Source: Nocardia carnea NBRC 14403 (GTDB lineage: Bacteria > Actinomycetota > Actinomycetes > Mycobacteriales > Mycobacteriaceae). Taken from it: a stretch of DNA of 64,000 nt. Numbering within the stretch: the first letter of the stretch is position 1; each line of letters opens with the position of its first letter. Made by a program: the position numbers and the translations under genes. Of the stretch, positions 895 to 6,664 are shown piece after piece. Under the pieces are notes generated by a model. That model searched no databases. It was not told the DNA's origin and saw only the letters and a program-made list of their open reading frames with translations. The DNA is taken from positions 1-64,000 of the forward strand of contig NZ_BAFV01000071.1 of the NCBI RefSeq assembly GCF_000308515.1, given 5' to 3'.

Positions 895-2160
895 TTATTC
901 CGACGGCGCCACAAGTCCGGATTCTTTCTGCCGGGCGCCTCGCCGGCGGGCAGGCGGAGGGCCGGGAGCCGAACCCGTCGAACTGCCGGCCACTGCGAGC
1001 GCGAACATAGCTGTCACCAGCATCCATCCGATGGCGGCTGTATCGAAAACGCTGAGCAGATAGCCTGCGATCATGGCACCGAAGGCGACCGCGCCGTCGG
1101 TCACCATCGACACCATGCCGACCGCGCGCCCCAGGACCTCTTCGGGAATCCGTTCCACCCGGAACAGTGTCAGTGCCACATTCACCACCACGCCGACCGC
1201 GCCTATACCGAACCACGCCGCACCGACCACCAGCGGGTGCGAGCTCAGCGCGATGGGGATCATCAATCCTGCCCAGCACCACAGCGACCAGCGATACAGC
1301 TGCTGGGCGCCGAATCGGGTTGCCAGTCCGGCCGCTACGGCGGATCCGAGGATGCCGCCTACTCCGGCGGCGCCCAGCACCACGCCGACCACCCAGACCG
1401 GCCGCTCCGACCGTTCGATATCGACGATGATCAGCAGGATGACGACCTGAATCACGATATTGGACAATCCGCTGATCACCGTGGAACTGCGGAGAAACGG
1501 CTCGCCGAGAACCAGCTGAGCCCCGGTCCGCAGCGTTGCCGGGGCGGATTCCGGCGATTCGGTATCGCGGCGTGGCTGTGCCGGGGCAACTTTGATCGAG
1601 GACAGGGTGCACAGGCAGACGAGGTAGGTGATGGCATCGGCAACGAACGGCACCCATCGGGCGAGACCGTATGCGGCCGCGCCGACGGCCCGGCCGATAA
1701 CCAGGGCAATGGGTTGTTCGGCCTCGAAAAGTGAGAACGCCGCCGGTCGTTGCGAGGTATCGACGATATCGCGGATCAGGGCCAGTTCGCTCATTCCGAA
1801 GAATACGAACGCGGTGCCTTCCACGAAGGCAGCAGCTATCAGTAGCAGTCCCGGCTCGGGTGGATCGAGCACTACGACCAGCCAAGCACAGCACGCCGCG
1901 GCGAGGCCGGCTGTCTGGCAGACGATCATGATGGTCCGGCGATCCCACCGGTCGGCGGCAACTCCCGCGGGCAGCTGGAATATCAGGGCAGGTAACGAGA
2001 TCGCGAACCCGACCCAGCCCGCGAGGGCCGCCGACCCGGTGATCGCAAGTGCCAGTAATGGGTAGGCGATGCGGACCCCGTGGAACCCGATCAGCGATAT
2101 CGCGTTACCGGACCACAGCAGTACGAAATTCCGGTTTCCGAAGACGCCGGAACGGGTCAT
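895..2160 (-). CDS. MFS transporter, probable exporter of the adjacent RiPP
   Basis: 421 residues from ATG at 2160 (MTRSGVFGNRNFVLLW). The start overlaps the radical SAM stop by 4 nt (ATGA), so translation is coupled. About 12 hydrophobic segments are visible, and the loop after TM2 carries the family-A motif form GVAADRWDRRT. It resembles the enterobactin/macrolide-efflux type (EntS/MefA-like, MFS_3) of actinobacteria. The frame stays open far upstream, but that part is Arg-rich and antisense to the maturase, so I rejected the longer start. Placed as the last gene of the precursor-maturase operon, it is the best candidate for export or self-resistance. The exporter role is inferred from context. 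Confidence 0.88.
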   Translation of the reverse strand: MTRSGVFGNRNFVLLWSGNAISLIGFHGVRIAYPLLALAITGSAALAGWVGFAISLPALIFQLPAGVAADRWDRRTIMIVCQTAGLAAACCAWLVVVLDPPEPGLLLIAAAFVEGTAFVFFGMSELALIRDIVDTSQRPAAFSLFEAEQPIALVIGRAVGAAAYGLARWVPFVADAITYLVCLCTLSSIKVAPAQPRRDTESPESAPATLRTGAQLVLGEPFLRSSTVISGLSNIVIQVVILLIIVDIERSERPVWVVGVVLGAAGVGGILGSAVAAGLATRFGAQQLYRWSLWCWAGLMIPIALSSHPLVVGAAWFGIGAVGVVVNVALTLFRVERIPEEVLGRAVGMVSMVTDGAVAFGAMIAGYLLSVFDTAAIGWMLVTAMFALAVAGSSTGSAPGPPPARRRGARQKESGLVAPSE

Positions 2161-3392
2161 CGGCCCGTCGCGGCCTGCAGATCGGCCCGGATCCGGGATT
2201 CGATATGCCGGATCAACTTTTCGAGGTCGGCGCAGTACACCGATGGGTTCCGGAACCCGCTTCCGGCCCGGTATCGATGAGCGTAATGTCCCGCACCGCA
2301 GACACGGTGGATCGGACAGGCGCGGCATTCGGGACCCAATGCGTCGGCGCCGATCTGCCGGGCGATCACCGCCGGTTCGTGTACCGCCCGGTCGAGCGCG
2401 TTCCCGCCGGTGCCACCCTCGATCCGGGCGGCGCCGGCGAAGGCGGATTTCAAGGCATCGACCTGTTCCAGGCTGCCGTCGGTTTCGATCACGGCGAGCT
2501 GGACCGGCGCGAGTCCCACCGATTCCGAGGAGCCGGTGCCGCCGAACAGCAACTCGATCACTTCGTCGAAAAGCCTGATGCGGGTTTCGGCGGCAGGGGC
2601 GCCGTACCAACGATCGAAGATCGCGATGAGCCAGTCGGCGTACGGCGTCCGGGTTCGGTCGGTGGTGCGTGCAGGGGGTGGCGTGGTCCAGTTGCCGTGG
2701 GGGAGGAGGAGATCGAGGGCGGGCGGTTCGAAGCCGACAAGCGCCTCATAGGTGTCGAGTGGATCATTGTCGATATCGATCGTGCAGAGCAGGCCCGAGT
2801 ACAGGTGCCGATATGCGGGCTGGTTCAGGAGCCGGAGTCCGGCGCTGACGTCGGCGTGACTACCGGCACCCCGCCGGTATTTCCGGTGCCGGTCGTGGCC
2901 GCGTTCGTCACCGTCGAGGCTTACGCCGATCTGCACATTGTGCCGGGCACAGATATCGAGGAAGTCCGCGTCGAGGAGGACACCGTTCGTCTGCATTCCC
3001 AGCCGGACTCGCGTGGCCGGTTCCACGATCTCGCGGGCGCGTCGTGCGAAACGATCCAGCGCCGTATGCCCGACGAGCAGCGGTTCACCGCCGTGGAAGA
3101 CCAGGCTCACTTCGGGCAGCGTGAATCGTGCGGCGTGGTCGCGGATCATCGTGCAGGCGTGGTCGAAGATCTGATCCGACATGGTTCTGGGCTGGTCTTT
3201 CCAGCTCTGATCGGACATCTCGTAGACGTAGCAGTAGTCACAGGCGAGATTGCAGCGGCTGTGGATCTTGACGACGTACTGCGTGAACGGCAGGCTCTGC
3301 CGCCGGGCCTCGCGGAGTTCTCGGGCATGCCGTTCGCCGGCCGGCCACTCCTCTGCCGGTGGGCCCTGGGTGAATTCCACGCTCGTGCTCAT
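2157..3392 (-). CDS. fxsB: FxsB-like radical SAM/SPASM RiPP maturase
   Basis: 411 residues from ATG at 3392, preceded by GAGGAAG at good spacing. The radical SAM cluster motif CNLACDYC gives C47, C51 and C54. A C-terminal SPASM-type cysteine set lies at about C356, C359, C365 and C387 (CRACPIHRVCGAG...VYC). FHGGEPLLVG and LDGD are typical of this radical SAM branch. Known FxsB proteins act on FxSxx precursors and belong to the maturases that link an aromatic side chain to the residue two positions later (three-residue cyclophanes). The neighbouring gene encodes exactly such a substrate. Unlike the long FxsB forms, no extra HExxH domain is fused. Gene order is precursor, hairpin, maturase, MFS. 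Confidence 0.92.
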   Translation of the reverse strand: MSTSVEFTQGPPAEEWPAGERHARELREARRQSLPFTQYVVKIHSRCNLACDYCYVYEMSDQSWKDQPRTMSDQIFDHACTMIRDHAARFTLPEVSLVFHGGEPLLVGHTALDRFARRAREIVEPATRVRLGMQTNGVLLDADFLDICARHNVQIGVSLDGDERGHDRHRKYRRGAGSHADVSAGLRLLNQPAYRHLYSGLLCTIDIDNDPLDTYEALVGFEPPALDLLLPHGNWTTPPPARTTDRTRTPYADWLIAIFDRWYGAPAAETRIRLFDEVIELLFGGTGSSESVGLAPVQLAVIETDGSLEQVDALKSAFAGAARIEGGTGGNALDRAVHEPAVIARQIGADALGPECRACPIHRVCGAGHYAHRYRAGSGFRNPSVYCADLEKLIRHIESRIRADLQAATGR

Positions 3393-3422
3393 ACCGACTT
3401 CCTCGCCGTTTCCAGGCGTCCG

Positions 3423-3450
3423 TGTCCCGGCGCGGGTGAGCGCCGGGACA
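3423..3450 (-). terminator. GC-rich hairpin between precursor and maturase genes (attenuator candidate)
   Basis: A perfect 10-bp inverted repeat TGTCCCGGCG / CGCCGGGACA with an 8-nt loop lies in the 71-nt gap between the precursor stop and the maturase start. There is no T-run, as is usual in high-GC actinobacteria. In RiPP operons such structures often lower read-through so that the precursor is made in excess; that role is inferred here. Confidence 0.55.
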
Positions 3451-3463
3451 GGATGTACAGGGT

Positions 3464-3694
3464 TCAGGCGCCCGGTTCGATGAACGAACTGAAGTTGCCT
3501 TTGCGCTCGATGAACGAGCTGAAGTTGCCCTTGTTCTCGATGAATGAGCTGAAGTTGCCACGTTTGCGGGCATCCGAGGAAACCAGATGTGCCCGCAGGA
3601 CATCGGGTACGGATGTCGATCCGGTCCACTGGTCGCTGAGCTCGGCGAGGCCCGCTCCGGCGGTGGCGCCGGTCGGGAGGGTGGAGAGGGACAT
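3464..3694 (-). CDS. fxsA: FxSxx-type RiPP precursor with three tandem GNFSSFIE cores
   Basis: 76 residues from ATG at 3694 (MSLSTLPTGATAGAGL), with GAAAGG about 7 nt upstream. An upstream in-frame extension exists but is Arg/Pro-rich and lacks support. The leader (about residues 1-45) contains the AELSDQW and VPDVLRAHL segments. The C-terminus repeats GNFSSFIE at residues 46-53, 56-63 and 66-73, separated by NK and RK, preceded by RKR and followed by PGA. Each unit has Phe-Ser-Ser, matching the F-x-S crosslink motif of FxsB substrates, plus a second Phe-Ile-Glu triad. Known FxSxx proteins carry one motif at the extreme C-terminus; this one has three and a PGA tail. Cleavage near the basic linkers could release three near-identical peptides (inference). 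Confidence 0.9.
   Translation of the reverse strand: MSLSTLPTGATAGAGLAELSDQWTGSTSVPDVLRAHLVSSDARKRGNFSSFIENKGNFSSFIERKGNFSSFIEPGA
3476..3559 (-). repeat. Three 24-bp core-coding repeats with 30-bp period
   Basis: Units lie at 3476-3499, 3506-3529 and 3536-3559. They encode identical octapeptides but differ at synonymous positions, for example the Phe, Asn, Ser and Gly codons. The protein sequence is therefore kept by selection and not merely by recent DNA duplication. Confidence 0.9.
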
Positions 3695-3872
3695 GATGTG
3701 CCTTTCTGTGGGATCTGCCGGACGGCCCCGCGCTGATCCGTGCACCGCACAGCCGTCTACCGGCCGGCGCAGAAGCAGGTGGGGGCTGCCCGTGAATCGG
3801 TTGAGGCCCATCGGCGGCCCGGGAGAATCCTTTCGGTGTCCGAGCGTCTGCGATGTGGCGCCCATCCCATCG

Positions 3873-3882
3873 GTAACGTTAC
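3873..3882. promoter_or_regulatory. Palindrome GTAACGTTAC upstream of the RiPP precursor
   Basis: A perfect 10-bp palindrome lies in the 267-bp gap between the LuxR-type regulator stop (3962) and the precursor start (3694), about 180 nt upstream of the precursor. The remaining gap has no gene. It is a possible operator, and the matching regulator is unknown. The inverted repeat at 6951-6980 upstream of the regulator shares the GTTACG/CGTAAC core. Confidence 0.35.
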
Positions 3883-3961
3883 GGCGGGAACTCCGGCGGC
3901 GGTATCGGTCATTCGCCCGGTTGCCGGATCGGTCGTATCGGACTGTTGACCGGCCCCGCGC

Positions 3962-6664
3962 TCAGACGTCCGAGGGGTCGTCGAGGTCGAGCGGAAGCCG
4001 AGCCAATGCTCGTCGATTGCTTACTCCGAGTTTGGGAAAGGCGCGGTAGAGGTGATGAGAGACGGTTTTTGGGCTGATATGCAGCCGGGCGGCGATCTGC
4101 CGGTTGGTTGCTCCGCCGGCTGCGAGTCGTACGACCTGTAGTTCCTGCGCAGTCAGCCGTGCCGATACGGCACCTGCGTGGGCGGGTGTCCCTTCGCCTG
4201 CCGCACGGAGTTCCGTACGCGCCCTCTCTGCCCACGGTAGGGCGCCGAGACGTACGAAAGTGCGCATCGCCGTGTGCAGTACGGTGCGTGCCTTCAATGT
4301 GAAGCGCTCACGACGCAGCCATTCGCCGTACAGGAGGCCGGTGCGGGCGTGGTCGAACCAGCGATGCGTATCGGCGTGCAGGGCCAGAGCCTGTGCGAAA
4401 GCGGCCCCATCCTGCTCGAGCAACCCGCGGCAACGGAGCAGCTGTGCCTCGATCCAGGATGCGGAGTTCGCGGCATGCCAGCGTTCCAGCAGTGACATCG
4501 GTTCGCCGGCCTGTTCCGGGTCGCACCGGGCTGCCGCCTCGATATGATCGCTGATCAGGGGAATCCAGCAGCCGATAGCCTGGTCTCGGTGGTCGGACGC
4601 TGCTTCGAAGTGGGCCAGCGCCGCCTCGTGACGTCCGTAACCCAGATCGAGAAGGCCCAGTGCCCATCGGGCATTGACCGAGCTGGTCGTGTCGAAGAGC
4701 GAAGCCGCACCGGGAAGGTTCTCTTCGGCCAGTCGTCGGCACAGGTCGTGCTCCCCGCGCACGGCAGCGAGAACAGCCAGGCCGGCCCCGGCGCGACCGG
4801 CGCGGTCGGGCTGGCCGATCTCATGGGCCGTCCGCAGACTCTCGGAGAATACTGTTTCGGCCTTCCGGAACTGGCCGAGCAGTGTTTCGGCGGCGCCCAG
4901 CGCGATACCGGCGAGGGGAAGACGCCCCGCCATTCCGCGCTCGCGGTACATCGTGTGCACTTCTGAGAATCGGGCGTGAGCATCATCGACCTCACCCGCG
5001 CTCATCGCCTGCACGGCGAGAACGAACTGGACCGAATGGTCTTCGGGAAATCGAGCCCGGCCGAGGCGGATTCCATCGCGGACGGTACGAACCGCCTGCG
5101 CTCGGTCGCCACGACCGTTGTGGAGAGCGAGCTGTCCGTCCAGCACGGCCAGATACCCTTCGCGTCGAGCGCTGGGGGGAAGAGTTTCCACTGCGGCCCG
5201 GGTGGTGAGTATCCGGGACGGATCGGGGTCGGGCCACACAGCTCCTGCCGCGTAGATGTGCATACGTGCTGCGGCATCCGGATTTGCGGAACACAGGTGG
5301 GCAGCCTCGGTGAATGCGTCGTACGCGCCGCGCGGGTCGCCCCGGGCGGAGAGTATCCGACCGCGTGCCGCGGAAAGGCGCGCCGCATCCGCGAAACCGC
5401 CGTCTTCCGAAGCGATTTCCTCTGCCAGTTCGAGGGCCCGATCTGCCTGCCCGGCTTCGATATCGGCTTCCAACGCCACCAGAAGCCGGTGGTGACGATC
5501 ATCCTGGGCGGGGGAGAGCCGGCCCGCATATTCGGAGGCGATCGCCGCACGCCGGTAGTCGTTGGTCCACCGTGCACTGTCGGCGACCGCGTCCAGAGCG
5601 GCTGCCACGGCTTCGTCGGGTGCGGTCGCGGCGGCGGCCAGATGCCAAGCCCGTAACTCGGGATCGTCGATGCTCGCCGCGATGGTGGCGTGTATGAACA
5701 GTCGCATGCTGTAGGGAGCCATCCGGTAGGCGGCGGCTCGTTCGAGCGGATGCCGGAAAGTGATCGAATAGCCCGAAATAGTGACAACACCGATTCGTTC
5801 CGCGGCATCCAGCGCCGCGGTGGTCGAGCCGAGTGCGGTGAGTACACGTACGGCGACGATGAGACTCCCACTGCAATCGGCGGCTACGACCAGCAGGGCG
5901 ATCCGGGTCTCTTCGGGCAGGACGCGGATCTCACGTTCGTACTCGCGTTGCAGGTGGTCGGTCAGCGCCAGCGGTCCCAGGGGCGGCAGACCGCTGTTCG
6001 CACCGGGCAGTTGGAGCAGGGCCGACGGGTTGCCGGCCGCGGTGTCGAGAACCCGCTCACATGTGTCGGCCGCGAGCCCGGGAACCTGCTCGGTCAGCAG
6101 GGCTTTCGAATCGTCTCTGCTCAGTGGCATCAGCTCTGTTTCGGGCAGTCCGCAGGTATTGCCCCGGGCCCGGGAAGTCACGAGGACCGCTGCCCGGTGT
6201 GCGGTGAGCCGACGCGTGGCGAAGGCCAATGCGTGCAGCGAAGGCTGATCCCACCAGTGAGCGTCATCGATCAGGAAGAGCACCGGGCGTTCGGCCGAGA
6301 GTCTCGACAACAGCGTGAGTAATCCGAGGCCGACCCGGTGGCTGTTGTCGTCCTCCTCGAGCGGGCCGGTTCCCGTCACCGGAGGTGAGGCTTCGCGGGT
6401 CGGTTCCGGTACTGCCTTTGCTGCGTCCGGTATCGGTGCGAGCAACTGGTGCAGCCCGCCGTACCGCAAGCCTGCTTCCTGCTCGGTTCCGCAGCAACGC
6501 AGAACAATCCAGTCTTCGCCCACAGAGTTCGCTGCATGGTCCAGGAGTGTGGTCTTGCCCTGTCCGGGCCCGCCGGTGATCAGCACCGAATTGCCGCGAC
6601 CGTCTCGGCTGTCGTCGATGAGTGTTGCGATCTGTTCGATTACATCATCACGCCCGTGCAGCAC
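3962..6664 (-). CDS. Large LuxR-family ATPase transcriptional regulator (LAL/MalT type)
   Basis: 900 residues, GTG start at 6664; this is the only start codon after the upstream in-frame stop. The N-terminal AAA/STAND ATPase has Walker A GGPGQGKTT at residues 31-39 and a Walker B FLIDDAHWWD near 135. A long helical TPR-like middle region follows. The C-terminal LuxR helix-turn-helix (LTAQELQVVRLAAGGATNRQIAARL) lies in the last 70 residues. Such LAL regulators commonly activate adjacent biosynthetic operons. It lies directly upstream of, and on the same strand as, the precursor-maturase-MFS genes, so it is the likely pathway regulator (inference). Confidence 0.92.
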   Translation of the reverse strand: MLHGRDDVIEQIATLIDDSRDGRGNSVLITGGPGQGKTTLLDHAANSVGEDWIVLRCCGTEQEAGLRYGGLHQLLAPIPDAAKAVPEPTREASPPVTGTGPLEEDDNSHRVGLGLLTLLSRLSAERPVLFLIDDAHWWDQPSLHALAFATRRLTAHRAAVLVTSRARGNTCGLPETELMPLSRDDSKALLTEQVPGLAADTCERVLDTAAGNPSALLQLPGANSGLPPLGPLALTDHLQREYEREIRVLPEETRIALLVVAADCSGSLIVAVRVLTALGSTTAALDAAERIGVVTISGYSITFRHPLERAAAYRMAPYSMRLFIHATIAASIDDPELRAWHLAAAATAPDEAVAAALDAVADSARWTNDYRRAAIASEYAGRLSPAQDDRHHRLLVALEADIEAGQADRALELAEEIASEDGGFADAARLSAARGRILSARGDPRGAYDAFTEAAHLCSANPDAAARMHIYAAGAVWPDPDPSRILTTRAAVETLPPSARREGYLAVLDGQLALHNGRGDRAQAVRTVRDGIRLGRARFPEDHSVQFVLAVQAMSAGEVDDAHARFSEVHTMYRERGMAGRLPLAGIALGAAETLLGQFRKAETVFSESLRTAHEIGQPDRAGRAGAGLAVLAAVRGEHDLCRRLAEENLPGAASLFDTTSSVNARWALGLLDLGYGRHEAALAHFEAASDHRDQAIGCWIPLISDHIEAAARCDPEQAGEPMSLLERWHAANSASWIEAQLLRCRGLLEQDGAAFAQALALHADTHRWFDHARTGLLYGEWLRRERFTLKARTVLHTAMRTFVRLGALPWAERARTELRAAGEGTPAHAGAVSARLTAQELQVVRLAAGGATNRQIAARLHISPKTVSHHLYRAFPKLGVSNRRALARLPLDLDDPSDV

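Follow-up and report, generated by a model that had tools for sequence, protein, structure and literature searches.

The closest described counterparts of the locus reported here are actinobacterial systems in which a precursor peptide of the FxSxx-COOH family (TIGR04268) is paired with the maturase FxsB (TIGR04269). The MscB enzymes grouped by InterPro under IPR026335 are, we take it, the same family as FxsB. MscB forms a C4(Phe)–Cβ(Ser) bond in peptides termed triceptides, according to a review (PMC11002830); these share the Phe-x-Ser motif with the present locus, which differs in having several cores per chain. ChlB is styled a multiple cyclophane synthase in the title of its paper, with several rings per peptide. 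Radical SAM enzymes that act on repeats are already known, an example being TvgB on TVGG repeats (PMC9062424), and so are multi-core RiPP precursors: in the microviridin precursor AMdnA and the cyanobactins (PMC5934393), one precursor carries several cores for one enzyme, as here, but the enzyme family and the ring chemistry differ. Our literature searches, outside the scope of which the main triceptide papers fell, found no paper on tandem-core FxsB substrates, and we make no claim of a first description.

The window, by which we mean the whole 64-kb stretch of Nocardia DNA that was analysed, contains an operon with the following features.

895–2160, minus strand: MFS exporter (PF07690 and PF05977 over cut-off), its start overlapping the maturase stop (ATGA)
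2157–3392, minus strand: FxsB-family radical SAM/SPASM peptide maturase, 411 aa (TIGR04269, 9gm3 match, Cys columns)
3423–3450, minus strand: predicted RNA hairpin in the gap between precursor and maturase genes, 11 pairs, 6-base loop, no T run (fold z, covariation)
3464–3694, minus strand: precursor peptide gene, 76 aa, leader (residues 1–45) plus three cores (translation; kin in 8 other Nocardia genomes)
3536–3559, minus strand: core 1, GNFSSFIE, residues 46–53, then linker NK (sequence, codons)
3506–3529, minus strand: core 2, GNFSSFIE, residues 56–63, then linker RK (sequence)
3476–3499, minus strand: core 3, GNFSSFIE, residues 66–73, then tail PGA (sequence)
3962–6664, minus strand: large ATP-binding LuxR-type regulator, 900 aa (PF13191 and PF00196 over cut-off)

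The precursor gene (3464–3694, minus strand) translates as MSLSTLPTGATAGAGLAELSDQWTGSTSVPDVLRAHLVSSDARKRGNFSSFIENKGNFSSFIERKGNFSSFIEPGA. Three GNFSSFIE units with a 30-bp period, the linkers NK and RK and the PGA tail had been read there in a preliminary description, and the translation confirmed them, as did Tandem Repeats Finder (3477–3559, period 30, 2.8 copies, 90% match, score 131). Chance origin of the repeats is excluded by the eight other Nocardia genomes in which a related leader is followed by 2, 3 or 9 cores. A longer in-frame ORF starts at 3865; the ATG at 3694 directly follows the ribosome-site-like sequence AGAAAGG, and homologues have a similar site at the matching start, with a purine-rich, ribosome-site-like sequence ahead of the aligned start in all nine multi-core precursors.

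By both its profile and its C terminus, the window precursor falls outside the FxSxx-COOH family. It ends in FSSFIEPGA, placing F-x-S-x-x away from the extreme C terminus, and neither TIGR04268 nor any other NCBIfam family matched it at E ≤ 1; against Pfam, a single sub-threshold match was obtained (RHH_6, 17.6 versus 27 bits). The earlier suggestion that this precursor class escapes the FxSxx-COOH model holds for the genus, as none of 148 Nocardia genomes passed the TIGR04268 cut-off of 28 bits (best, 26.5 bits; 25.0 bits for the match at the single-core locus of G316). For comparison, a Dactylosporangium ORF (L060) reached 28.8 bits. At E ≤ 1, the model matched in 148/148 Nocardia and 8/14 control genomes, none over cut-off; these sub-cut-off matches are mostly chance. 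The earlier statement that FxSxx proteins normally carry a single C-terminal motif was checked by eye on the loci found here: 9 of 70 non-Nocardia loci (L028, L036, L038, L043, L044, L057, L060, L064 and L084) have an ORF that could plausibly encode an FxSxx-COOH peptide, with a single FxS among the final 45 residues shown, and none was recognised at the remaining 61. ORFs before FxsB in an actinobacterial MAG (L034) and in Mycolicibacterium rhodesiae (L061) end in FGAFNQHSSSPW, a different putative core. At seven Actinomadura loci (L022, L024, L025, L027, L030, L041 and L050), no FxSxx precursor was recognised near FxsB; an ORF resembling, by eye, the end of an acetyltransferase lies ahead of FxsB in each.

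The maturase that adjoins the precursor does belong to the FxsB family, as had been proposed: it scores 464.9 bits against TIGR04269 (cut-off 370) and is not a YhhB protein, scoring 363.3 bits against NF041707 (cut-off 445). No further match above the FxsB cut-off was found in the window's genome. The CxxxCxxC motif occupies residues 47–54 and the SPASM-region cysteines are C-terminal; 8 of the 10 Cys columns listed are invariant across the 10 enzymes compared, and invariance extends over CxxxCxxC and four C-terminal Cys columns. The nearest solved structure is the radical SAM domain of ChlB (ChlB/ChlBH, PDB 9gm3 and 9gmc; E = 2.6e-68), and sulfatase-maturase kin are also present in the PDB. 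In this comparison of the enzymes alone, ChlB is reported to be fused to an HExxH hydroxylase domain, whereas the 411-aa window enzyme has no such extension.

Tandem cores of this kind recur within the genus. A maturase match at E ≤ 1e-40 was present in 34/150 Nocardia genomes, and a profile of 14 precursors matched in 23/148 at E ≤ 0.01. Nine of the 148 sampled genomes, the window's included, carry a similar leader followed by 2 to 9 FxSxI cores (G000, G022, G221, G237, G331, G426, G440, G476 and G495); the other 14 profile-matching genomes gave single-core or weak matches. Core counts over the nine are 2, 2, 2, 2, 2, 3, 3, 3 and 9, with two cores in N. carnea, N. speluncae, N. rhamnosiphila, N. 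grenadensis and N. cyriacigeorgica, three in the window, N. wallacei and G331, and nine in G476; the species names are those of records L008–L013, whose pairing with genomes we infer from agreeing precursor and identity values. At least two conserved cores thus stand behind one leader, across species, in nine genomes, as defines a multi-core RiPP. Multi-repeat homologues beside FxsB, the search for which had been put forward as a check, exist in eight other Nocardia genomes with their cores conserved. No tandem FxS cores were found outside Nocardia by a loci scan, a phylum profile search or a family single-protein search. The scan, which took 5-mers repeated at least three times in ORFs of 40–260 aa and is blind to two-core arrays, returned FxS arrays in Nocardia alone, besides other kinds of repeats; the profile search of 396 phylum genomes found the window, G022 and one weak match (G654, E = 5e-4), and the single-protein search of 401 family genomes found five Nocardia genomes.

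The nine-core precursor of G476 (L095, 957–1394) is 145 aa long, with seven FNSAI cores followed by two FNSFI cores. Over the span displayed, five consecutive units are codon-identical and the adjacent ones almost so; the near-identity of the middle 33-bp units in DNA suggests a recent expansion. Upstream of a second FxsB gene in the same genome (L125) lie two near-identical single-core precursor genes in tandem, with the core FCSFI, and G336 has the same arrangement with the core FNSFI (L099); in both, the whole gene rather than the core is duplicated. On the minus strand of L131 (G419), FSS/HSS repeats (FSSFSSFSSHSRHSSFSSFSSHSSWSR) form the end of a 92-aa ORF that lies 5′ of a divergent FxsB-like gene and may, from its sequence, be another repeat-type substrate. 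An FxsB fragment at a contig end in G408 (L115/L127), which shares 74% identity with the window's enzyme and precedes the MFS gene, may mark a tenth multi-core locus, the precursor of which would fall past the contig end.

Every one of the nine multi-core loci keeps the order LuxR–precursor–FxsB–MFS. Among the remaining Nocardia FxsB stretches, several of which extend only ~1.5 kb upstream, the sole LuxR match is a weak C-terminal one in L123. MFS genes homologous to the window's lie near FxsB in the nine multi-core loci and in many single-core loci. Single-core Nocardia FxsB loci (L156, L158) resemble the multi-core loci in their maturase (54–66% identity), F-x-S core, related leader and, in many, MFS gene, but have one core per gene, no full-length LuxR match upstream and, in most, a hydroxylase. 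Set against the FxSxx-COOH/FxsB system, the Nocardia arrays share an FxsB over the cut-off, an F-x-S-x-I core, a short leader and an actinobacterial host; unlike it, they have 2–9 cores instead of one, a four-residue tail except in N. cyriacigeorgica, a precursor without a model match and no neighbouring HExxH hydroxylase. The SDR gene adjoining the window operon (1–822) finds no match within the 13 kb that surround the operon in N. carnea (L008), the closest relative found, so that the operon flank differs between close species.

The gap between precursor and maturase genes contains a GC-rich hairpin, the intergenic RNA having a fold z of −3.24 against dinucleotide shuffles. Across six aligned species of the nine with multiple cores, the three most divergent left out, 8 of its 11 pairs never vary, two are compensatory and the outermost is open in three species. 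Covariation support is modest: 7/500 shuffles reach the covariation score and 55/500 the number of double-change pairs. Folding predicts a hairpin at the same place in 9/9 multi-core loci (z −1.1 to −4.2, mononucleotide shuffles) and in five single-core loci (z 0.0 to −3.3). No promoter-like site was found within 3300–4100 and no terminator-like site at the hairpin, which may be an attenuator or an mRNA-stability element.

On balance, we think it likely that these loci are multi-core RiPP operons in which every core receives a ring and the array is probably cut into one-ring peptides. Recruited through its conserved leader, the precursor would be acted on by the FxsB-type radical SAM enzyme; in each F-x-S core this enzyme would join the Phe ring to the β-carbon of the Ser two residues on. 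Every core would then carry a single strained three-residue cyclophane, so that the window peptide would have three and its relatives between two and nine. Owing to the hairpin 3′ of the precursor gene, mRNA for the precursor would outnumber that for the enzyme; the LuxR-type regulator would control the operon and the MFS protein would export the product. A host protease encoded outside the operon would remove the leader and probably cut the array into small one-ring peptides. By analogy with MscB, Phe–Ser ring chemistry with one cyclophane per core is the most likely outcome, and the F-x-S motif of the window cores fits the triceptide definition; cleavage into units, export, regulation and the role of the hairpin we only infer. 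Rings on some cores only are conceivable.

Whether the array would be cut can be approached through its linkers and its exporter. The basic linkers had been read as possible cleavage signals, a rule that does not extend to the family: Lys or Arg occurs at 11/19 core boundaries, namely 10/11 outside G476 and 1/8 within it, and a dibasic pair at 2/19 (ERKGN, DKKGN). One boundary in G331 is just SGN, and the G476 linkers read ANDDHA six times, TNEGHA and SNKDHA. This lack of conservation weakens the case for a common cutting rule. An uncut array, a single chain with several cyclophanes of the repeat-based multi-ring type in which copy number would tune length or avidity, is a possible but less likely reading. 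Linkers that diverge while cores stay fixed, at spacings of 3, 5, 6 or 9 residues, would suit it, as would the failure to recognise a protease gene in the window operon, and related enzymes that act repeatedly on one chain are known in ChlB and TvgB (PMC9062424). Against an intact chain, the same family of MFS protein occurs in single-core and nine-core loci, and 8/9 precursors repeat one core protein sequence, as expected if each core gives one small product. MFS-type exporters usually carry small molecules. The presence of the window-type MFS in many single-core loci favours small released units, and we place cutting of the array ahead of an intact chain, though not by much.

The cores themselves are under strong purifying selection. 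In the alignment of 14 precursors (A1), F48, S50 and I52, the F, S and I of FxSxI, are the sole invariant columns. Codon counts over six of the nine multi-core species, leaving out the three most divergent, gave pN 0.031 in both the first and the last core (GNFxSFI) with pS of 0.45 and 0.40, respectively, against pN 0.231 and pS 0.41 in the leader. Within genes, counted in all nine multi-core precursors, differences between cores are synonymous only in the window, N. carnea, N. speluncae and G331; the three FSSFI cores of the window show four pairwise differences at two codons and no nonsynonymous difference. Core codons are identical in 4/9 precursors, which therefore offer no codon evidence by themselves. 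G476 mixes FNSAI and FNSFI, whereas each of the other eight keeps one core protein sequence throughout. The x of F-x-S is constant within every precursor (9/9): those of the window and N. speluncae have Ser, and the remaining seven have Asn. This uniformity within precursors fits selection on each unit, or homogenisation among the units of a gene. In 8/9 precursors, the last core is followed by four residues, the second of them Pro; the precursor of N. cyriacigeorgica ends directly after the last core, FNSFI. Phe-Ile-Glu, put forward earlier as a second crosslink site, did not survive the comparison as a family feature: Glu follows Ile in 14/28 cores, the others having D, S, G, A, T, V or a stop codon, and FxS is followed by Phe in 21 cores and by Ala in 7.

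These counts bear on two further readings. Modification of a single core, probably the last, with the rest as spacers or decoys from repeat expansion, would accord with the single C-terminal core of canonical FxSxx precursors and with the single-core Nocardia relatives, in which one suffices. We regard it as improbable, since the first and last cores have equally low pN and eight of the nine precursors, G476 being the exception, show no nonsynonymous difference between cores (synonymous differences in four, none in the other four). Functionless repeats left by neutral slippage of a short tandem DNA repeat, to which the shift in copy number between close species (three in the window versus two in N. 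carnea and N. speluncae), the five codon-identical consecutive units of G476 and the identical core codons of four precursors might point, are very improbable, disfavoured by the codon changes: across species, first and last cores combine a low pN with a normal pS, the differences within the four precursors that have them are synonymous, and all nine precursors in the LuxR–precursor–FxsB–MFS order retain at least two cores.

A maturase tree of 24 of 40 rows, from which most rows lacking a recognised precursor and some loci were dropped while three such outgroup rows were kept, groups the window with two species that have two cores, N. carnea and N. speluncae (98/96), within a larger block of two- and three-core species (98/86). 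The nine multi-core maturases fall into at least two blocks, but one origin of the multi-core state is not rejected (single clade: p-AU 0.22; 52% of 200 bootstrap trees). By comparison with its two-core sisters, core 2 of the window is the unit without a counterpart, and the third core may be a gain in the window or a loss in the sisters.

In tblastn searches at E ≤ 1e-5, the HExxH β-hydroxylase (TIGR04267 in the three proteins scanned) matched neither the 64 kb of the window nor any multi-core locus of the nine. A match was found in 23/34 other Nocardia FxsB stretches, with loci at the same place merged, a two-FxsB stretch counted once and some stretches truncated after 1.5 kb or by the end of a contig, so that the gene could be missed, and in 42/70 non-Nocardia loci. 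In the window's genome, TIGR04267 gave nothing over cut-off (21.8 versus 40 bits). The absence is not unique to multi-core loci, for it extends to the single-core loci L014, L099/L157 and L105/L159; L106/L160 and L124, which have no recognised precursor, and others known as short stretches also lack the gene. Nor is it genome-wide, as G331 and G476 have a hydroxylase beside a second FxsB gene (L129 and L125). A tentative reading is that the multi-core loci may form a Nocardia FxsB branch without a locus hydroxylase and with its own LuxR regulator, in which the single core would have been expanded into an array; one enzyme would then produce, whatever the linker, an expandable chain of two to nine strained, concatenated rings, with ring number evolving by unit duplication.

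If each core is modified, a single enzyme and leader would handle one to nine rings across linkers of 3 to 9 residues. The Nocardia loci would then be a natural series for the movement of radical SAM enzymes along repeats (order, processivity and leader reach) and a scaffold for many cyclophane copies per chain. They represent a substrate class overlooked by the FxSxx-COOH annotation model, and, with one to nine copies among relatives, the peptide family seems to evolve through multiplication of its active unit.
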